Source: Endozoicomonas sp. G2_2
GTDB taxonomy: Bacteria; Pseudomonadota; Gammaproteobacteria; Nevskiales; Salinisphaeraceae
Length of the DNA: 64,000 bases
Assembly (NCBI RefSeq): GCF_017744135.1
Contig: NZ_JAGHQU010000001.1
Span: 186,001 to 250,000, forward strand
Direction: 5' to 3'
Every line of letters starts with the position of its first letter. Position 1 is the first letter of the stretch. Below are positions 34,308 through 47,297 of this stretch, piece by piece. The position numbers and the translations under genes were made by a program. The notes beneath the pieces were generated by a model. It ran no database searches. It was given only the letters and a program-made list of their open reading frames with translations, and was not told the origin of the DNA.

Positions 34308-35519
34308 GTGTCTCAATTCGCGGCGCCGAGACTTGTATTTGAGGATGGGGCATCTGAGCGGCTGCAGCGCGTGCCCTTGGCTGCGACAGACGGCGCAGGT
34401 GGCTTTTCGGAACTTTGGCTGCAACAGCTTTTGTTCAGCGACCCTTCGATTCTGCCGATTGAAGAAATCGACGTCTCTTTCGCCGAGCTCGTTCCGATCT
34501 GCATGGAGTTAGGGACGCGCGTCGGGCCAATCGACGCGCTGTTTGTGACCCCTGCCGGCAAGCTCGTTGTGCTTGAGACCAAGCTTTGGCGCAATCCCCA
34601 AGCGCGTCGAGAAGTCGTTGGCCAGGTTCTGGATTACGCGAAGGAGCTGCGACGGTGGGGATATGCGGATCTCCAGCGCGAGGTTTCGCGTCGTACGAGC
34701 CAGGCGGGTAACGCGCTATTTGATATTGCTAGAGCGCGTGTGCCGGAACTCGACGAGGCGACGTTCGTAGATAACGTCTCGAAAAGCCTGCGACATGGGG
34801 ACTTCCTGTTATTGATATGCGGCGACGGCATACGCGAAGAAGTGGAATCGATTGCTGAATATCTGGATCCGCATGGAACACTTCATTTCACTTTGGCCCT
34901 TATAGAGACGGCGGTTTACCAAGCCTCCGCTGGACATCGCTATGTGCAACCGCGTGTTCTGGCGAAAACTGAGATCATTCGCAGGACTGTAGTGACGCTC
35001 AAGTCCGACCATCTCACCGCGACCGAGGATCCGACCGACGAAGCGGAACAGGACGACAAGCAGCCGCGTAATGCGGAAGAAAGCTGGTACCTGAATTTCT
35101 GGCAAGACTTCATCGACCGAGTGGTATTCGACGACGTAACCCAGTCGAAACCGAACGCAACCCGCTTTACGCACGTTTTCATCCCGATGCCTAAAGGATC
35201 GACCGGCTGGATCACAGTTTATTTTTCATTGAGCGGCGGTGAGATTGGGCTGTTTTTGACTTTTACGCGCGGGCCTCTCGCCGATCGGATCTACGAAGAG
35301 CTCCACGCTCATAGGGAAGACATTGAGGAAGAGTTGGGGTTTGAGCTCGAATGGCAATCAAGCGCGGATAGCAAGTATCGAATTGCCCGCCGTCGCGAAT
35401 ACAGCGTGATGACTGACGACCAAGAGCGATCTGTGGCTATGCATTGGTTCCTCGCGCACGCCAACCCGCTTGTGAATGCGTTTCGCCATCGCATCAAGGA
35501 GATTGTCGAGGAGCGCTAG
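34308..35519 (+). CDS. PD-(D/E)XK nuclease-like protein with DUF4268-like C-terminus
   Basis: A 403-residue protein, start GTG behind GAGGAA. Residues 75-115 show a restriction-nuclease-like pattern: D77 in G-P-I-D-A-L-F, then E90-T-K92 in V-V-L-E-T-K-L-W, then a Q-x-x-x-Y helix (Q106 to Y110). The C-terminal half has the W-x-x-F-W-Q-D-F start, the I-E-E-E-L-G-F-E-L-E-W segment and K-Y-R-I-A-R-R as in DUF4268. It is lower in GC than its neighbours and stands alone between rubB and an unrelated convergent gene, so it is likely imported; a defence or repair role is possible but unproven. Confidence 0.6.
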   Translation: MSQFAAPRLVFEDGASERLQRVPLAATDGAGGFSELWLQQLLFSDPSILPIEEIDVSFAELVPICMELGTRVGPIDALFVTPAGKLVVLETKLWRNPQARREVVGQVLDYAKELRRWGYADLQREVSRRTSQAGNALFDIARARVPELDEATFVDNVSKSLRHGDFLLLICGDGIREEVESIAEYLDPHGTLHFTLALIETAVYQASAGHRYVQPRVLAKTEIIRRTVVTLKSDHLTATEDPTDEAEQDDKQPRNAEESWYLNFWQDFIDRVVFDDVTQSKPNATRFTHVFIPMPKGSTGWITVYFSLSGGEIGLFLTFTRGPLADRIYEELHAHREDIEEELGFELEWQSSADSKYRIARRREYSVMTDDQERSVAMHWFLAHANPLVNAFRHRIKEIVEER

Positions 35520-37732: not shown

Positions 37733-40700
37733 ATGGAGCAGACACAGGTTTCCGAGCGCGCGCAGACGCGCAGCCAGCAGCCGTCCGCAGACGCCTACGG
37801 CGCCAGCATCGAAGCCACCGCGCCCGGTGGCCACAAGGTCATCCGTCGTAACGGCAAGGTGACGCCGTTCGATGCGTCCAAGATCGAGCTCGCCGTCACC
37901 AAGGCGTTCATCGACGTCGAGGGCCAGCAGGGCGCGGCCTCCAGCCGTATCCGCGAGACCGTCAAGGACATCACCCAGCAGGTGGTCCAGGGCGTGACCC
38001 GCAGTCTGCCCGGCGGCGGCGCGGTGCATATCGAGGACATCCAGGACTACGTCGAGCTCGCGCTCATGCGCTCCGGCGAGCACAAGGTCGCCCGCTCGTA
38101 CGTGCTCTATCGCGAAGAGCGCGCCCACGAGCGTGCCGCCAAGCAGGCGGAGAAGGGAGCGACCGGCGCCGCCGCGGCCGAAACCGCGGATATCAACGTC
38201 GCCTTCAAGGACGGCACCACCCGCGCGCTGGATCGCGATCGTCTCGGCCGCGTGATCGACGAAGCCTGTGCCGGTATTGACGGCGTGTCCGCCGAGCAGG
38301 TCCTCAAGGACACGCTCAAGAACGCCTTCGACGGCATTTCCGAAGACGAGCTGTCGACCGCCCTCGTACTGTCCGCACGCCAGCGCCTGGAAGCCGAGCC
38401 CAACTACGGCATGGTCGCCGCGCGCCTGCTGATGGACAAGATCCGTCACGAAGGCCTGACCTTCCTCGCCGAAGGCGCGGTGGAATACGCCACCCACGCC
38501 GAGATGCGCGAACGCTATCCGCAGTACTTCAAGGACTTCATCGCCACCGGCGTTCAGCACGAGCTGCTGGATTCCGAACTGCTCGAGTACGACCTCGACA
38601 AGCTTGGCCAGGCCCTGATCGCCGATCGCGACCTGCAGTTCACCTATCTCGGCCTGCAGACGCTCTACGACCGCTACTTCATCCACTATGAGTCCAAGCG
38701 CTTCGAGCTGCCGCAGGCGTTCTACATGCGCGTGGCGATGGGCCTGGCGATCAACGAGATCGAGCGCGAGGAACGCGCGATCGAGTTCTACAAGCTGCTG
38801 AGCTCCTTCGACTTCATGAGCAGCACGCCGACGCTGTTCAATTCCGGCACGCTGCGCCCGCAGCTGTCGAGCTGCTATCTCACCAGCGTGTCCGACGACC
38901 TGCACGGCATCTACGGCGCGGTTCAGGACAACGCCATGCTGTCCAAGTTTGCCGGCGGTCTCGGCAACGACTGGACGCCGGTGCGTGCCATGGGCGCGCA
39001 TATCAAGGGCACCAACGGCAAGTCGCAGGGCGTCGTCCCGTTCCTGAAGGTGGTCAACGACACGGCCGTGGCCGTGAACCAGGGCGGCAAGCGCAAGGGC
39101 GCGGTCTGTGCCTATCTGGAAACCTGGCACAAGGACATCGAGGAATTCCTCGACCTGCGCAAGAACACCGGCGACGACCGTCGTCGCTGCCACGACATGA
39201 ACACCGCGAACTGGATCCCGGATCTGTTCGTCAAGCGCGTGCTCAATGACGAGCAGTGGACGCTGTTCTCGCCCAACGACGTGCCGGACCTGCACGACCT
39301 CACCGGCGCCGCCTTCGAGGAAGCCTATAAAGGCTACGAAGAAAAGGCCGCCCGCGGCGAGATCAAGAACTACAAGACACTCTCCGCCGTGAATCTGTGG
39401 CGCAAGATGCTGAGCCTGCTGTTCGAAACGGGCCACCCCTGGTTCACCTTCAAGGACCCGTGCAACCTGCGCAGCCCGCAGCAGCATCGCGGTGTCGTGC
39501 ATTCATCGAATCTGTGCACCGAGATCACGCTCAACACCTCGCCGGGCAAGGAAATCGCGGTCTGCAACCTGGGTTCGGTGAACCTGCCGCAGCACATTGA
39601 AGACGGTGAACTGAACGTGGCCAAGCTGGAGTCCACGATCAACACCGCCATGCGCATGCTCGACAACGTCATCGAGTACAACTACTACAGCGTCAAGACC
39701 GCGCGGGACTCCAACCTGCGTCACCGCCCGGTCGGCCTGGGCCTGATGGGCTTCCAGGACGCGCTCTACAAGCTCAAGCTGCCGTACGAATCCAGCGAGG
39801 CCGTCGAGTTCGCCGATCGCTCCATGGAGCAGATCAGCTATTTCGCCATCAAGGCCTCCACCAACCTGTCGGAAGAGCGCGGCGCCTACAGCTCCTTCAA
39901 GGGCAGCCTGTGGGATCAGGGCATCCTGCCGATCGACTCGATCAAGATCCTGCGCGAGAACCGCGGCGCCGACTATCTCGATCAGGACGAGACGCAGACG
40001 CTGGACTGGGAAGCCCTGCGTACGCGCATCGGCCAGGTCGGCATGCGCAACTCCAACTGCATGGCCATCGCGCCCACCGCGACCATTGCCAACATCACCG
40101 GCGTGAGCCAGTCGATCGAGCCGACGTATCAGAACCTGTACGTCAAATCGAACCTGTCCGGCGAGTTCACGGTGGCCAACCCGTACCTGGTCGAAGACCT
40201 CAAGCAGCTCGACCTCTGGGACGAGGTCATGGCCAACGACCTCAAGTATTACGACGGCTCCGTGCAGGCCATCGACCGCATTCCGGACAACCTCAAGGTG
40301 CTCTACAAATGCGCCTTCGAGATCGATCCGCGCTGGCTGGTGGAAGCCGGTTCGCGTCGCCAGAAGTGGCTGGATCAGGCCCAGAGTCTGAACCTCTACA
40401 TGGCCGAGCCGTCGGGTCGCAAGCTGGACGAACTCTACAAGTTCGCCTGGACCAAGGGCCTGAAGACGACCTACTACCTGCGCACCATGGGCGCGACCCA
40501 CGTGGAGAAATCCACGGTCACCGACCACCGCCTGAACGCGGTTGGCAACGGCGGCCAGGGCAGCGGCGGCGGTGCCGGTGCGGGCGGCTCGGTAACGGGT
40601 GCGGCGAGCGGCGGCAGCCGTCCGGCCCCGGCCGGCGCCTCGGCCAGCAACGGCGCAACGAACGGTGCGGCCGCCAAGCCGACGCCGGCGCCGGAAGCCC

Positions 40701-40759
40701 AGCCGACCGCGCCGATGGCCTGCGCCATCGACGACCCGGACTGCGAAGCCTGTCAATAA
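37733..40759 (+). CDS. nrdA: Ribonucleoside-diphosphate reductase alpha subunit with two ATP-cones
   Basis: A 1008-residue class I catalytic subunit (E. coli NrdA 761). Two N-terminal ATP-cone allosteric domains (about residues 33-135 and 148-240) explain most of the extra length. The catalytic barrel shows S-S-C-Y-L, S-N-L-C-T-E-I (thiyl cysteine and Glu), V-C-N-L-G-S-V-N-L (second redox Cys) and the radical-transfer tyrosine pair in T-Y-Y-L-R-T-M-G. A Gly/Ala/Pro-rich linker leads to the mobile C-terminal redox pair C-E-A-C. The ATG at 37733 follows GAGG; a GTG at 37691 is possible. First gene of nrdA-small ORF-nrdB. Confidence 0.96.
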   Translation: MEQTQVSERAQTRSQQPSADAYGASIEATAPGGHKVIRRNGKVTPFDASKIELAVTKAFIDVEGQQGAASSRIRETVKDITQQVVQGVTRSLPGGGAVHIEDIQDYVELALMRSGEHKVARSYVLYREERAHERAAKQAEKGATGAAAAETADINVAFKDGTTRALDRDRLGRVIDEACAGIDGVSAEQVLKDTLKNAFDGISEDELSTALVLSARQRLEAEPNYGMVAARLLMDKIRHEGLTFLAEGAVEYATHAEMRERYPQYFKDFIATGVQHELLDSELLEYDLDKLGQALIADRDLQFTYLGLQTLYDRYFIHYESKRFELPQAFYMRVAMGLAINEIEREERAIEFYKLLSSFDFMSSTPTLFNSGTLRPQLSSCYLTSVSDDLHGIYGAVQDNAMLSKFAGGLGNDWTPVRAMGAHIKGTNGKSQGVVPFLKVVNDTAVAVNQGGKRKGAVCAYLETWHKDIEEFLDLRKNTGDDRRRCHDMNTANWIPDLFVKRVLNDEQWTLFSPNDVPDLHDLTGAAFEEAYKGYEEKAARGEIKNYKTLSAVNLWRKMLSLLFETGHPWFTFKDPCNLRSPQQHRGVVHSSNLCTEITLNTSPGKEIAVCNLGSVNLPQHIEDGELNVAKLESTINTAMRMLDNVIEYNYYSVKTARDSNLRHRPVGLGLMGFQDALYKLKLPYESSEAVEFADRSMEQISYFAIKASTNLSEERGAYSSFKGSLWDQGILPIDSIKILRENRGADYLDQDETQTLDWEALRTRIGQVGMRNSNCMAIAPTATIANITGVSQSIEPTYQNLYVKSNLSGEFTVANPYLVEDLKQLDLWDEVMANDLKYYDGSVQAIDRIPDNLKVLYKCAFEIDPRWLVEAGSRRQKWLDQAQSLNLYMAEPSGRKLDELYKFAWTKGLKTTYYLRTMGATHVEKSTVTDHRLNAVGNGGQGSGGGAGAGGSVTGAASGGSRPAPAGASASNGATNGAAAKPTPAPEAQPTAPMACAIDDPDCEACQ

Positions 40760-40791: not shown

Positions 40792-40950
40792 ATGTCGAAC
40801 AACAGCGACAACGCCGCTTCCGACACCGCCGAGGCCGCCACGGCCGAGCCGGTTCGCCCCACCCTCGGGGCGAGCCGGCCGCGCCGGGCCAACGCCATCC
40901 GTCAGACGATCAAGAGCCGCCGCGTGATCCATCACCGGCGCCGCAAGTAA
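40792..40950 (+). CDS. Small basic protein encoded between nrdA and nrdB
   Basis: A 52-residue reading frame with a good AAGGGA ribosome site, 32 bp after nrdA and 31 bp before nrdB. The first half is acidic/Ala-rich; the second half is strongly basic, with R-P-R-R-A-N and the tail [12 protein letters not shown]. Its leader (GGGAAACGCC-ATG) resembles that of nrdB (GGACAACGCC-ATG), suggesting matched translation. I do not recognise a family. It could be a regulator or assembly partner of the reductase, or nucleic-acid binding. Confidence 0.6.
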
Positions 40951-40981: not shown

Positions 40982-42190
40982 ATGCTCGACTTCGAAGACA
41001 CCCCCCGCCAGGACCACAACCCCGGCACGCCCAAGCCGACCACGGCCAACCCGAACCCGACCGGCGAAGGCGTCTCGCCCGATCCGTACGCGCTGAACAA
41101 GCAGGCCGAAAAGACCAATCAGTCCGGCGCGGACGAAGCCGTCACCGGCCTGGAGCAGGTCGAGCTCGGCGGCGACCGTGTCTCGGTGGACGACAAGCGC
41201 ATCATCAACTGCCGTGCGGACGTCAACCAGCTCGTACCCTTCAAGTACACCTGGGCCTGGGAGAAATACCTCAACGCCTGCGCCAACCACTGGATGCCGC
41301 AGGAAGTGAACATGTCCGCCGACATCGCCATGTGGAACGACCCGGACGCGCTCACCGACGACGAACGCCTGATCCTCAAGCGCGGCTTCGGCTTCTTCGC
41401 CTCCAGTGAATCGCTGGTCGCCAACAACATCGTGCTCGGCGTCTACAAGCACCTCACCAACCCCGAATGCCGCCAGTACCTGCTGCGCCAGGCCTTCGAG
41501 GAAGCCGTGCACGGCCACACCTTCCAGTACATCGTGGAAAGCCTCAACCTCGACGAGGGCGAGATCTTCAACATGTACCGCGAGTTGCCCAGCGTGCACA
41601 ACAAGGCCGCCTGGGCCATGCAGTACACCCAGAGCCTGAACGACCCGGACTTCAAGACCGGCACCCACGAAAACGACCAGATCTTCCTGCGGGATCTCAT
41701 TGCCTTCTACGTCATCTTCGAAGGCATCTGGTTCTATGCCGGCTTCGTGCAGTACCTGTCCTTCGGCCGCCGCAACAAGATGACCGGCACCGCCGAGCAG
41801 ATGCAGTACATCATGCGCGACGAGTCCATGCACCTGAACTTCGGCATCGACGTCATCAACCAGATCAAGATCGAGAACCCCAACCTCTGGACCGACGAAT
41901 TCCAGAGTGAGGTTCGCGCGATGATCGACGAAGCCATGCACCTCGAAATCGAATACGCCCACGACACCATGCCCCGCGGCGTGCTCGGCCTCAACGCCGC
42001 CATGTTCGACGAGTACATGAAGTTCATCGCCAACCGCCGTTGCTCGCAGATCGGCCTGGCCGAACTCTACCCCGGTGCGGAAAACCCGTTCCCGTGGATG
42101 AGCGAGATGATGGATCTCAAGAAAGAGAAGAATTTCTTTGAGACGAGAGTGATCGAATATCAATCTGGCGGCGCTCTAAGCTGGGATTGA
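40982..42190 (+). CDS. nrdB: Ribonucleoside-diphosphate reductase beta subunit, class Ic type
   Basis: A 402-residue R2 protein. Metal ligands are E143, E174, H177, E247, E281 and H284. The usual first ligand Asp is Glu (S-S-E143-S-L) and the radical Tyr is Phe (H177-G-H-T-F181-Q-Y183). The spacing between these residues equals that of Chlamydia trachomatis R2 (E89, E120, H123, F127, E193, E227, H230), with the chlamydial radical-path residues W51, Y129 and Y222 matched by W104, Y183 and Y276. Such enzymes use an Mn(IV)/Fe(III) centre instead of a tyrosyl radical. The last 20 codons, from about 42129, use AT-rich codons (AGA, CTA, TCT) unlike the rest. Confidence 0.95.
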
Positions 42191-42247: not shown

Positions 42248-43126
42248 ATGGCTCAGCAATCTAAAATCACTGTTTTCCCGGGAGCTGCGCGCGGTCTCGC
42301 GCGCAATCACTTGCCACGACGACCCGAGCAACTTGGCCTCTGGCCGTTTCCGGTTCAGCGATTTTATCCTGCTGATGACACGCGCGGGAGTGGATACTTT
42401 GGGGAGGCGCTAGCGAACGGCCACCGTTATTATCTCCGAGGCACTCAAGCGCACCGATTAGCTCCTTTTTCGGACCTTTTTGCGTACGATTTATGTCGTG
42501 CATGCGAAATTACCACGCCGCCATGCGATAGCATTGAATTGGATAGCGGCGATATTGTTTTTGGTTCGAGATACGAACGCGGATCGGTCGATGGATATGT
42601 GTTAAGTGAGCTTTTAGCTTCCGAGCCCGACCTTCGCTATACGCTAGCCTTACAATTTTCCCGCCTAGTAGCAGTAGACGCCTTTCTATCTAACTCAGAT
42701 CGATCCTTCTCTAATTTGTTATGGCTGCCTGAAGATTGCACGGTTGTACGGCCACCCGCCTACGATAACGGCGAAGCTGGTGGCGCGGTGATCGCCATAG
42801 ACTTTGCGAATTGCCTGTTTACTTCCGGAGAATCACTAGCTTCTCCCGGTTTTGACGCCAAGTCATCGTCAGATCGATTTTACACCGGGCTGGCTCGGGC
42901 CGGTTTTATAGAAGGTAGGCAAGTCGGCCATACTTTAAACGCTCTTTTAACGCTGCCGAACGGGTTCTTGGATATGGTGCTTCAGCGCTGTCCTAAACGA
43001 TGGCTCGACGGCGAGGACTTAACTCGAATTCACACTTGGTGGGCGTCTAGGCAACGTGGAAGCCGTGTCGATCAAACTGAGGAATGGTTAGCCAATGTCG
43101 CTAAAATTTCCATTCGTCATAGTTAA
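42248..43126 (+). CDS. HipA-like kinase domain protein
   Basis: A 292-residue protein in AT-rich DNA right after nrdB. The kinase-like core is seen as N149-S-D151-R-S-F-S-N156, matching the H/N-x-D-R-x-x-x-N catalytic loop of HipA-type kinases, followed by I-D185-F-A, the metal-binding Asp. The N-lobe has G-S-G-Y-F-G and Y-Y-L-R-G, with Arg where a Lys is expected. It fits the HipA_2-like group that is usually paired with DUF3037 proteins, as here: it overlaps the next gene by 32 bases. Codon use and GC mark it as imported. Role unknown; toxin-antitoxin or defence is suspected. Confidence 0.7.
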   Translation: MAQQSKITVFPGAARGLARNHLPRRPEQLGLWPFPVQRFYPADDTRGSGYFGEALANGHRYYLRGTQAHRLAPFSDLFAYDLCRACEITTPPCDSIELDSGDIVFGSRYERGSVDGYVLSELLASEPDLRYTLALQFSRLVAVDAFLSNSDRSFSNLLWLPEDCTVVRPPAYDNGEAGGAVIAIDFANCLFTSGESLASPGFDAKSSSDRFYTGLARAGFIEGRQVGHTLNALLTLPNGFLDMVLQRCPKRWLDGEDLTRIHTWWASRQRGSRVDQTEEWLANVAKISIRHS

Positions 43127-43958
43127 ATTTAAGCCTGGAAAAGGTAGAGGCGAGGCTCTCAATGTGGGGCTGCTAGCGCTTAAAGACGAGCGTGTCGATC
43201 TACGTCTAGGTGCAAATTATTCCAGAAAGCTAATTTTAAAAGAGTATGGCGCATTAGACGAGTTTTGGCGCCTTTCGGAGAATCTTAGCTACTGGATCTC
43301 GCTTTTCTCTCAATCTAAGGAGCTTCTGTTAGAGGAATTGCCAATTTTTCCTCGCTGGGCTTTTTCTCAAATCGGTTACTTTTACGCAAATACAAGTGCC
43401 GACTACGAGGCGGAAGTTCAAGAGATATTGGCGGATTTAGTTTCGCCGCTATCGATGGAGCCAAAAATTTCGCGTAAACGGCGCTTGTTATCGAGCTTTC
43501 GCCACGAGCTAGAGAAAATTGATATTCTTGGCGATAACGAACAAGATTTTAAAAATGGTTATATGGTTCCTAAAGTACCAATAAAAATAGGTGGCAGTAC
43601 ATTAAGTTTCGATTTTGGTGCGCATTCTAAAGAAATTGTTCTTATTCAGACGCTTGATCTTTCTGTTGTCGATTTATCAAATAAAATTAAAGATGCCTCT
43701 CTTAAGGCTATATCGTTTGATCGGGCGCAAAGTTATTTTGAGAGAAGAGTACGGCCCTTTTTTCTCGTAAGGTGGCCAGAAGTCCCCAATGAATGGAGCG
43801 ATACATGTTATGAGATCATGCATGCTTACTCGGATAAGATAGTCGATTTCGATAGAAGTAGGAGTAAGATAGAGTTTTTGTCTTATTTATCGAAGTTTAG
43901 GCCGAGATCTCGAGATTTATTTGCAGAAAAAAGGAACTCGTTAGCTAGTCGGGCCTAA
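43095..43958 (+). CDS. DUF3037-like protein paired with the HipA-like kinase
   Basis: A 287-residue protein, the most AT-rich gene in the window. Its N-terminus (F-V-I-V-K-F-K-P-G then R-G-E-A-L-N-V-G-L-L-A-L) has the shape of DUF3037 proteins, which begin with a V-R-x-V-P...R-x-E-x-x-N-V-G pattern. The remainder is helical with no motif I recognise. The start codon lies inside the end of the kinase gene, so the two are translationally coupled and surely act together. Function is not known; the pair is a candidate undescribed system. Confidence 0.6.
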   Translation: MSLKFPFVIVKFKPGKGRGEALNVGLLALKDERVDLRLGANYSRKLILKEYGALDEFWRLSENLSYWISLFSQSKELLLEELPIFPRWAFSQIGYFYANTSADYEAEVQEILADLVSPLSMEPKISRKRRLLSSFRHELEKIDILGDNEQDFKNGYMVPKVPIKIGGSTLSFDFGAHSKEIVLIQTLDLSVVDLSNKIKDASLKAISFDRAQSYFERRVRPFFLVRWPEVPNEWSDTCYEIMHAYSDKIVDFDRSRSKIEFLSYLSKFRPRSRDLFAEKRNSLASRA

Positions 43959-43980: not shown

Positions 43981-43994
43981 TGGGGTCAGATACC
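43981..43994 (+). repeat. REP-like GGGGTCAG motif, copy 1
   Basis: TGGGGTCAGATACC at the left end of the IS110 fragment. A similar TGGGGTCAGGTC lies at its other end (44421-44432) in the same orientation. Such GGGGTCAG units commonly accompany REP-associated tyrosine transposases. Confidence 0.5.
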
Positions 43995-44438
43995 CTCTTG
44001 AGTTTCAAGTCCCGCCATTGGTATTTCAGTCCGAAACGGCTGTCCTGATTTGATGACGCCATAGATCAGATGCACGAGCTTTCGCATGCTCGCGCCGACG
44101 ATCGCCTTCGGTGCTAAGCCTTTCTTTTCCAGTCGCTTTGCCATCGCGATGATGACCGGGTTGTGGCGTTTGGCCACCATGCCCGGCATATAGAGCGATT
44201 TTCGTGCTGCGGTGTGCCCGGCTCGCGAGATCATGGTGCGGCCGTGGATCGAGGTACCGGACTGTTTCTGTTTGGGCGTCACGCCGACGAAGGCTGCCAG
44301 CGCCTTGGCGCTTTTGAAGCGCCGAACATCGCCGATATAGGCCAAGAACTGGGCCGAAGCGCGGTTACCGACGCCGGGGATACTCTGCATCAGTTCAGCG
44401 GCAATGGGGTCCAGCGGCAATGGGGTCAGGTCTTGCAT
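43986..44438 (-). pseudogene. IS110 family transposase, truncated
   Basis: 150 residues homologous to the C-terminal half of IS110/IS116/IS902 transposases: I-P-G-V-G-N-R-A-S-A-Q, Y-I-G-D-V-R-R-F-K-S-A, F-V-G-V-T-P-K-Q-K-Q-S-G and R-K-S-L-Y-M-P carry the serine-containing catalytic region. The N-terminal DEDD RuvC-like domain is missing; IS110 enzymes are normally 300-400 residues. Both ends of the frame run into GGGGTCAG repeats, so the open frame is partly an artefact of the insertion and the element cannot be active. Confidence 0.8.
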
Positions 44439-44447
44439 TGTGCATGC
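44396..44447 (+). repeat. Tandem 16-bp duplication and REP-like unit before the RAYT gene
   Basis: CAGCGGCAATGGGGTC occurs twice in direct tandem (44396-44411 and 44412-44427). The second copy runs into GGGGTCAGGTCTTGCATTGTGCAT, a motif of the type found upstream of REP-associated tyrosine transposases. This is where the 5' part of the IS110 gene is lost, so it marks an insertion junction. Confidence 0.6.
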
Positions 44448-44489
44448 TCGCGGTTAAACTCAACATCAAACGGCAGCAGTTGATCCGCC

Positions 44490-45338
44490 ATGGCCCGCCC
44501 GTTACGCCTCGAATTCGCCGGCGCGCTCTACCACGTCACCGCGCGCGGCGATCGTCAGGAAGCGATCTACGAAGACGATGAAGATCGTCAGGTATTTCTT
44601 GATGTGCTCGCGGATGTCGCCGATCGCTTCAACTGGTTGGTGCACGCCTACTGCGAGATGACTAACCACTACCACCTGCTAATCGAAACGCCGGACGGCA
44701 ATCTGTCGAAGGGCATGCGACAGTTGAACGGGGTGTATACGCAGTACAGCAACCGTCGGCATCGCCGGGTGGGGCATTTGTTCCAGGGGCGCTACAAGGC
44801 GATTCTGGTGCAGAAGGAATCGTATCTGCTGGAAGTCGCGCGCTATATCGTGCTCAACCCGGTGCGGGCGCAGATGGTGCGTAGTGCCGGCGATTGGCCG
44901 TGGAGCAGTTATCGCGCGACGGCGGGGCGTGCGGGCGTGCCGCGTTTTTTGACGACGGAATGGATTTTGTCGGCGTTCGGCGGTCGGCTGAAAGAATCGC
45001 AGATTGCGTATCGACGATTTGTGAGTGAAGGGCGCGGCCAACCGGCGCCGTGGGCCGCGCTCGCTAACCAGGTTCTGCTGGGCGATGGCGCGTTCGTCGA
45101 TCAAATGCGTGCGAAACTTGAACAGTCCAACCGTTCGCTGGCCGAAGTGCCCCGCGCTCAGCGCGCCGGCCGTGCCAAGCCCTTGGCCGACTATGCGACG
45201 CAGAGCAACACACGCGATGAAGCCATTGTGGCCGCCTATGCGTCCGGCGGTTACAGCATGGCCGAGATCGGCGCGTATTTCGGTGTGCATTACTCAACGG
45301 TCAGTCGCGCGGTGCGTGCCGCCGAGCGTGGTTCGTAG
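44490..45338 (+). CDS. REP-associated tyrosine transposase (RAYT, IS200-like)
   Basis: A 282-residue Y1 transposase. The N-terminus A-R-P-L-R-L-E-F-A-G-A-L-Y-H-V-T-A-R-G is the RAYT signature, H60-Y-H62 is the HUH metal motif (T-N-H-Y-H-L-L-I-E), and the helix S-Y-L-L-E-V-A-R-Y-I-V-L-N-P carries candidate catalytic tyrosines. The C-terminal 60 residues form a helix-turn-helix (G-G-Y-S-M-A-E-I-G-A-Y-F-G-V-H-Y-S-T-V-S) for DNA binding. The frame is intact, so it may be functional on REP-like units. Confidence 0.92.
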   Translation: MARPLRLEFAGALYHVTARGDRQEAIYEDDEDRQVFLDVLADVADRFNWLVHAYCEMTNHYHLLIETPDGNLSKGMRQLNGVYTQYSNRRHRRVGHLFQGRYKAILVQKESYLLEVARYIVLNPVRAQMVRSAGDWPWSSYRATAGRAGVPRFLTTEWILSAFGGRLKESQIAYRRFVSEGRGQPAPWAALANQVLLGDGAFVDQMRAKLEQSNRSLAEVPRAQRAGRAKPLADYATQSNTRDEAIVAAYASGGYSMAEIGAYFGVHYSTVSRAVRAAERGS

Positions 45339-46071: not shown

Positions 46072-46917
46072 TTACTGGCCGCCGAGGTTCTCCGTTGCTC
46101 GGCAATTTGGGAAGCGGCTGCAACCATAGAATGCGTTCCCGGCGTTTGCGCCTTTTCGTGCAATCCGCCTTACCATGTGTGCGCTGCAGCGTGGGCAAGT
46201 AGGCGTAGCTTGTTCAGAAACGGTCGGCGCGGAGCGCTGTGCTTGACCCGTTGCCGAGTTCCGACTGACGACGCGGCTCGCGTCAACGAGCTCGAGGTTG
46301 CGACCCGCCGCGAATTCTCTGGCCGCTTCAGTGAACTCGCCGATGCCCATCACGAATCCACCGGTAGCGCCTCGCGCCACCATCACGCCGTAGAGTTCGC
46401 GGACGACTGACACGCCGATGCGTGTCGCACGCCACTGCTTGCACTGAACCAGAAATGTTTCGCCGTGGCGCTTCAGGATTAGGTCGATACCGCCATCAGC
46501 GCCGGCGGGCGTGGCTACAACCGTATAGCCCTTTTCTTCGAACCAAGCGTGCATGAGTCGCTCGAAATCCTGCCAGCCCATGCCTCTAAGTGCTGCGGCG
46601 CCTTCGACGGTGCGTGATGTCTTGAGGAGGTGCCTGCGTCGGCGTCGCTCCATGAAGGACAAGAGCGCCGCAAGCAATAAAACGAGAGGCGCCATGTATT
46701 GGCCGAAAAGACCGATCACGCGAACAAACTGCGCGATGATGAGGCCGCTCATTTGTGTGGGGTCTGTGGGGTCTGCGGGGCGGGGCGATGGTAAATCTGC
46801 GAGTGCTGCGAACCCGATATATGCGATGGGTGCTAGTACGAGACAAATAACCCAAGGTAGCTTCGCGAATAGCTCGACCCACCGTTCGAGATCGGATTTT
46901 TTTCTCCGCCGTGTCAT
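46072..46917 (-). CDS. Membrane-anchored Mrr-like nuclease with topoisomerase zinc finger
   Basis: A 281-residue protein: two transmembrane helices (about 22-41 and 69-89), a restriction-endonuclease Mrr_cat domain (about 105-215) and a C-terminal C4 zinc finger of topoisomerase I type (C241, C244, C266, C272). The PD-(D/E)XK residues are D145 in G-G-I-D and Q158-C-K160. Similar proteins are found widely but their role is unsettled; DNA quality control at the membrane or defence is possible. The start at 46917 was chosen because it precedes a charged N-terminus and gives the usual length. Confidence 0.82.
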   Translation of the reverse strand: MTRRRKKSDLERWVELFAKLPWVICLVLAPIAYIGFAALADLPSPRPADPTDPTQMSGLIIAQFVRVIGLFGQYMAPLVLLLAALLSFMERRRRRHLLKTSRTVEGAAALRGMGWQDFERLMHAWFEEKGYTVVATPAGADGGIDLILKRHGETFLVQCKQWRATRIGVSVVRELYGVMVARGATGGFVMGIGEFTEAAREFAAGRNLELVDASRVVSRNSATGQAQRSAPTVSEQATPTCPRCSAHMVRRIARKGANAGNAFYGCSRFPNCRATENLGGQ

Positions 46918-47297
46918 CAATCGATCCCCGCTGCGATGTTGACATCGCGCCGACTGGTATTTTCTCGTGCCGAATGCTGTATCGACCAATTACACGGGCG
47001 ATTTAGTGTCAATTTGGTTGCGGGGATGCGCGACTGCCTTTATCGCGTAGTTCGTAACCTGATCGCTGGTACTCCAATAGCCACTAACATTGCGGACCTT
47101 GCAAAAGCGTTTCGTGTGACCCTGAGACGAATCGTTATGGCGTGTATAAGGCGGGGGAAGTTGCCGGTTCTCGGCCATGTCGGTCGAGTGGGCGAGGTCG
47201 TCCAAGTCGGAAAGCGCCTCAAATCGTTTAACATCCGGACCTCACGAAAAAGCCGCCCTTGGCGGGTAGCCCGTCCAATCGAAAAGGAATGTGTTGT
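46918..47297. other. Intergenic region between the Mrr-like gene and prpD
   Basis: A 380-bp divergent gap of moderate GC. It must hold promoters for both flanking genes, but no clear box, operator or RNA structure was seen. A 121-codon frame crosses it on the plus strand but overlaps both neighbours and lacks any recognisable motif, so it is not annotated. Confidence 0.5.

Follow-up and report, generated by a model that had tools for sequence, protein, structure and literature searches.

The nrdAB locus and its surroundings

On the forward strand of the window, i.e. the whole stretch of 64,000 nucleotides analysed here, we found the genes for both subunits of a class I ribonucleotide reductase (RNR). 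The gene nrdB (40982..42190, ATG start) codes for the radical-generating R2 subunit, a protein of 402 amino acids with class Ic-type residues. Its product matched the Pfam family PF00268 with E = 1.1e-90 and scored 675 bits with the NCBIfam model NF005550/PRK07209, against a cut-off of 309; membership in the Ribonuc_red_sm family and the adjoining nrdA gene identify it as the radical subunit of a class I RNR. The nrdA gene (37733..40759, + strand) lies upstream, with a gap of 225 bases, and codes for a catalytic subunit containing two ATP-cone stretches. Its start is given as GTG 37691 in the list of open reading frames, but ATG 37733 is likelier. The YY dyad and the Cys motifs are present in NrdA, and we take them to have their functional roles there.

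The gap between the two genes holds an Arg-rich ORF of 52 codons (40792-40950), and a similar end (RRVIHH) occurs in the corresponding gap at locus L195 of genome G001. A conserved small gene at this place was considered and rejected, because the ORFs found there in the other species compared differ or are missing. Directly 3' of nrdB follow two ORFs without a Pfam family (42248-43958), which we presume to look like a HipA-like kinase and a DUF3037-like partner. A kinase-fold match of the first (PI3_PI4_kinase, E = 0.0028) was weak and below the threshold; the second gave no Pfam match at E values up to 5, which speaks against this reading. Close to the nrd operon, at 43986-45338, lie part of an IS110-type transposase (PF02371) and a transposase of IS200-like type (PF01797). 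Elsewhere in the window, a DUF4268 protein and one matching an Mrr-like nuclease (34308-35519 and 46072-46989) gave hits to PDC-S11 and PDC-S02, two PADLOC models of candidate defence systems.

Because NrdB is the sole R2 found in the source genome, which likewise carries a single PF02867 large subunit, and because a search for NrdD in this genome (99.78% complete) found none, the NrdAB enzyme presumably has to be active. One PF02867 gene is also the rule in the family Salinisphaeraceae (15 of 17 genomes, two of them with the gene in two pieces on one contig). The other two genomes carry a second copy, possibly of a class II RNR (G008, C33:41894-43540; G012, C12:88685-90331).

Cofactor-site residues and subclass of NrdB

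The R2 subclasses are distinguished by the residue at the radical position and the first metal ligand, with Phe/Glu representing class Ic, Tyr/Asp classes Ia and Ib, and Tyr/Glu class Id (PMC8463856). In HMMER alignments to solved chains, Glu143 (codon GAA, 41408..41410, + strand) and Phe181 (codon TTC, 41522..41524, + strand) fall opposite the Glu and Phe of 6y2n, 1syy and 4d8f, so that Glu143 takes the place of the first metal ligand, an Asp in classes Ia and Ib, and Phe181 that of the class Ia radical Tyr. The five other ligands are kept on the same strand, namely Glu174 and His177 (ExxH, 41501..41512), Glu247 (41720..41722), and Glu281 and His284 (ExxH, 41822..41833, with Asp280 just before), as is the C-terminal Tyr393 of the radical path (42158..42160), which we take to be the counterpart of E. 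coli Y356. The solved chains most similar to NrdB are themselves of the Glu/Phe kind (6y2n with 3.5e-177; 1syy, 4d8f and 2ani with about 1e-132), and the best solved chain outside this group reached 148 bits. We assume 1syy to be the Chlamydia R2c; 4d8f belongs to the same sequence group as 4m1i, a Chlamydia R2c chain. An AlphaFold model of NrdB had a mean pLDDT of 56.7 and was poor around the metal site (block pLDDT of 40-59).

The class Ic residue set claimed in the preliminary description was borne out by these alignments to solved Glu/Phe R2 chains, with Phe181 opposite Phe at the radical position, and all ten residues it had named (W104, E143, E174, H177, F181, Y183, E247, Y276, E281 and H284) were found as described. 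Its chlamydial spacing held from E143 on, the alignment to 1syy being gap-free as far as H284, but not before, where a single one-residue gap precedes E143. The counterparts of chlamydial W51, Y129 and Y222 are present as W104 (41291..41293, + strand), Y183 and Y276, but do not discriminate between the types and were rejected as class Ic evidence, since they are common to both. W104 and Y276 occur in all 272 Asp/Tyr loci, save one unreadable cell at 276, Y183 in 249 of these 272 and in 52/52 Glu/Phe loci, and W104, Y276 and Y393 in both types alike, a few truncated or unreadable cells aside. All three counterparts are also found in the P. aeruginosa NrdB from a plasmid record (L170).

The residues that mark the type were determined from 327 loci in which positions 143 and 181 could be read, several genomes being counted more than once. 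We observed Asp/Tyr in 272, Glu/Phe in 52, Glu/Tyr in three and Asp/Phe in none, and the pair 143/181 is therefore the type marker, strictly coupled but for the three Glu/Tyr loci. Among loci of at least 55% identity, position 180 is Thr or Cys in 50/50 Glu/Phe and Ala or Ser in 269/269 Asp/Tyr loci; position 184 is Ile in 50/50 Glu/Phe loci, but also in 74 Asp/Tyr loci, and the haloarchaeal Glu/Phe locus L166 has Cys there. W250 is common to the Salinisphaeraceae and the Saccharopolyspora group and is absent from family f90, the outlying Glu/Phe rows and the Asp/Tyr loci. The three Glu/Tyr proteins, which have the pairing reported for class Id, are gammaproteobacterial members of the P. aeruginosa/Chlamydia-type NrdB family (L273 and L279 of f113, L280 of f181) and form one clade with a starred support of 99. 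They would be enzymes either on the way between Asp/Tyr and Glu/Phe or with a different cofactor.

With Glu143 and Phe181, NrdB has neither the Asp ligand and radical Tyr of class Ia nor, because of Phe181, the Tyr/Glu pair of class Id. R2lox proteins come without the C-terminal Tyr and without a partner R1 (PMC3824934), whereas NrdB has Tyr393, is encoded next to nrdA and scored 675 bits with the best RNR model vs. 49 bits with that of R2lox. NF005550 and NF005544 were the best models, and the NrdB tree holds both the P. aeruginosa and the Chlamydia kinds; on these NCBIfam models and our own NrdB tree, NrdB may belong to the NrdAz/NrdBz clade, which comprises the P. aeruginosa and Chlamydia sequences. 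Judged by its sequence, NrdB is a predicted class Ic R2 of the Phe/Glu, Mn/Fe type.

Among the closest known systems, the R2 of Saccharopolyspora erythraea (6y2n, PMC7467353) shares the Glu/Phe pair, the ligands and the C-terminus with NrdB (73% identity over 337 residues), but has lineage residues that the Salinisphaeraceae NrdB lacks. As for its cofactor, the words metal and manganese do not occur in the text of PMC7467353. The R2c of Chlamydia trachomatis (1syy, 4d8f, 4m1h, 4m1i) likewise has the Glu/Phe pair and all ligands, but is more distant from NrdB than 6y2n (446 vs. 592 bits). Its Mn(IV)/Fe(III) centre has been established by experiment; MnII/FeII and O2 give MnIV/FeIII, and the Mn of site 1 replaces the tyrosyl radical (PMC8463856, PMC11883743). 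The class Ia NrdB of P. aeruginosa is about 69% identical over positions 56-402, as judged from L170, a plasmid record that may not be the protein studied by EPR. It differs in having Asp/Tyr, and a diferric-tyrosyl radical was detected by EPR (PMC6754346).

NrdB combines all six metal ligands, with Glu for Asp at the first, with Phe instead of the radical Tyr, conserved radical-transfer residues and an adjacent NrdA. By analogy with C. trachomatis R2c, site 1 would hold Mn and site 2 Fe, O2 would convert the MnII/FeII form to Mn(IV)/Fe(III), and the active-site Cys of NrdA would be oxidised by this centre instead of by a tyrosyl radical. The Mn/Fe centre and the resistance to oxidants that the preliminary description had associated with class Ic are predictions for the Salinisphaeraceae NrdB. 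We regard it as highly probable that NrdB is a class Ic-type R2 with a C. trachomatis-like Mn/Fe site and that a family-level change from Asp/Tyr to Glu/Phe gave rise to it. A protein that works without a tyrosyl radical but uses Fe2 or Mn2 in vivo is rather unlikely. In favour of such a reading, neither the Glu ligand alone nor the first-sphere residues in general dictate which metals are bound (PMC4118035), and class Ic proteins readily take up the wrong metals; against it, Phe/Glu is the class Ic pairing, whereas the Mn2 enzymes of class Id have Tyr/Glu (PMC8463856). A degenerate or mis-sequenced class Ia R2 is barely conceivable, unless another RNR was missed: a missing radical Tyr, taken alone, might reflect damage, but Phe181 is coupled to a Glu ligand at 143, the product belongs to the sole RNR found in the genome, and a sequencing error is dismissed because Glu/Phe occurs in 17/17 genomes of the family.

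Distribution of the Glu/Phe pair and of associated traits

The nearest named locus is that of Salinisphaera orenii (87% identity). Its NrdB core does not differ from that of G006, a genome of the same genus as the source, and the genus and family names used here follow from this match. All 17 Salinisphaeraceae genomes were matched and all 17 have Glu/Phe, with the gene split over two contigs in one of them. Of 85 genomes searched in the order, 81 were matched and 67 read, yielding 17 Glu/Phe genomes, all within the Salinisphaeraceae, and 50 Asp/Tyr genomes, all outside. The Asp/Tyr NrdBs of the order are about 65-77% identical to ours over most of the protein and their NrdA partners fall into one clade with ours, but all 50 differ by Asp143 and Tyr181.

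For the class, the sequence of 6y2n served as query against 369 genomes, of which 214 matched. The 119 genomes read, which were mostly those scoring best to this Glu/Phe query and are not a random sample, comprised 104 with Asp/Tyr, 12 with Glu/Phe and three with Glu/Tyr; the corresponding numbers for the 76 families in this non-random sample are 68, six and two. Beyond the class, we found Glu/Phe on plasmids, three of them alphaproteobacterial (Phyllobacterium, Methylocella and Aureimonas) and two haloarchaeal, as well as in six genomes from elsewhere in the phylum. The exchange of Tyr for Phe in haloarchaea has already been published (PMC3019208). From these sequences, the class Ic state appears uncommon but recurrent in this RNR clade. 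In the open-licence literature, a search for the RNR of Salinisphaera returned nothing on the subject (one match, unrelated by title) and F127Y gave no match, and the words Nevskiales and Salinisphaeraceae were absent from the papers listed among the matches of a further search.

The preliminary description had called a class Ic enzyme with a two-cone NrdA notable for a gammaproteobacterium, a view that does not hold against the 12 Glu/Phe genomes among the 119 of the non-random sample read in the class. Two ATP-cones were present in four of five relatives tested (2/2 Asp/Tyr and 2/3 Glu/Phe), the haloarchaeal Glu/Phe protein having none. PMC9669993 describes class Ic-like and multi-ATP-cone sequences as frequent in NrdAz and reports two cones, as here, for the class Ia enzyme of P. 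aeruginosa, but three for C. trachomatis. Class Ic enzymes in this RNR clade are not new, and the same is true of two ATP-cones.

The source genome codes for two Nramp-family transporters, and hits over the cut-off were obtained in 16 of 17 genomes of the family vs. 17 of the 68 genomes from elsewhere in the order. In other lineages they were found in 8/15 Glu/Phe, 0/3 Glu/Tyr and 12/62 Asp/Tyr genomes. The enrichment in the family is circumstantial, as the contrast rests on a single clade. Nramp was rejected as a general class Ic marker, being below the cut-off in 7/15 other Glu/Phe genomes and in one of the 17 of the family.

History of the operon and its significance

For the history of the genes, we leaned on AU tests, careful trees and NrdA. 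In the NrdA tree, six Salinisphaeraceae rows and nine Asp/Tyr rows of the order form one clade with a starred SH-aLRT support of 100. In tests with quick trees (LG+G4), a single clade of all Glu/Phe NrdAs was rejected with p of about 3e-56 (AU). The nrdA gene has been inherited vertically. Because all 50 genomes read in the order outside the family have Asp/Tyr and NrdA nests with theirs, Glu/Phe entered a vertically inherited, probably tyrosyl-type operon, either by substitution or by transfer or conversion of nrdB only. In this view, an Asp/Tyr nrdAB of the order, class Ia-like, would be the origin of the operon, with nrdB changing to Glu/Phe in the ancestor of the Salinisphaeraceae. Acquisition of Glu/Phe within the Salinisphaeraceae lineage is the best reading.

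The NrdB trees were calculated without the trait columns (residues 139-146 and 170-190). Placement in an R2 phylogeny had been suggested in the preliminary description. The careful 73-row tree put the family together with f90 (91/87) beside the order (92/87), but placement and the number of Glu/Phe origins vary with the row set, with two or three changes required, and the NrdB trees are compatible with substitution as well as with transfer of nrdB only. The 73-row tree needs three changes, at least two of them forced by starred branches, 0% of 200 bootstraps needed only one, and a single clade of all Glu/Phe NrdBs had p = 0.033 in the AU test. The 52-row set, from which distant rows were left out, needs two changes (one in 2% of bootstraps), and starred branches in the 91-row and 52-row trees force only one origin.

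We consider the chances about even that the radical chemistry of this essential enzyme changed in place, a class Ic site arising or re-arising through a few substitutions (D143E, Y181F, A180C/T, C184I and F250W) in a class Ia operon of vertical descent, and that the change from Asp/Tyr to Glu/Phe happened more than once in this RNR family. Somewhat doubtful, but to be taken seriously, is that the same class Ic-type enzyme arose when another Glu/Phe lineage supplied all or part of nrdB, through transfer or gene conversion, nrdA remaining vertical. In residues 166-195, the family resembles the Saccharopolyspora type more than the order (0.83 vs. 0.71), one quick NrdB tree joins family and Saccharopolyspora type with a support of 91, and AU tests did not reject this grouping, either with f90 (p 0.278 and 0.615, the constrained tree in the second case surpassing the free quick one by 2.9 log units) or without f90 (p 0.291). 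Outside the site, however, the family is without the Saccharopolyspora-type residues 85L, 87L, 107T, 283I and others, inside it has residues of its own (G178, N189), and holding family and order together gave likelihoods above the free NrdB search (+13.6 quick, +6.7 careful, 52-row set).

The conflicting histories of f90 also favour a replacement of nrdB. At its Glu/Phe loci L172, L173 and L202 (genomes G393, G168 and G291), NrdB groups with the Salinisphaeraceae, whereas NrdA does not: grouping f90 with the family was rejected for NrdA (AU p 0.007), while f90 joining family and order together was not (p 0.51). NrdB in turn rejects f90 with the Chromatiaceae/Ectothiorhodospiraceae rows (p 0.015). 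This conflict suggests that nrdB alone may move or converge.

By its residues, the Salinisphaeraceae NrdB would be a new class Ic member whose value lies in its position inside a tyrosyl-type clade. Why one R2 acquires Mn/Fe and another Fe2-Tyr has yet to be answered (PMC4118035), and the evolutionary relationships of the R2 subclasses are listed as a goal (PMC8463856). Here, a whole Glu/Phe family stands beside Asp/Tyr sister families with NrdBs of about 65-77% identity and related NrdA partners, which would offer an example from nature of an enzyme whose metal centre has changed and, in an environmental bacterium, a ready-made pair in which to find the few residues that switch the cofactor.
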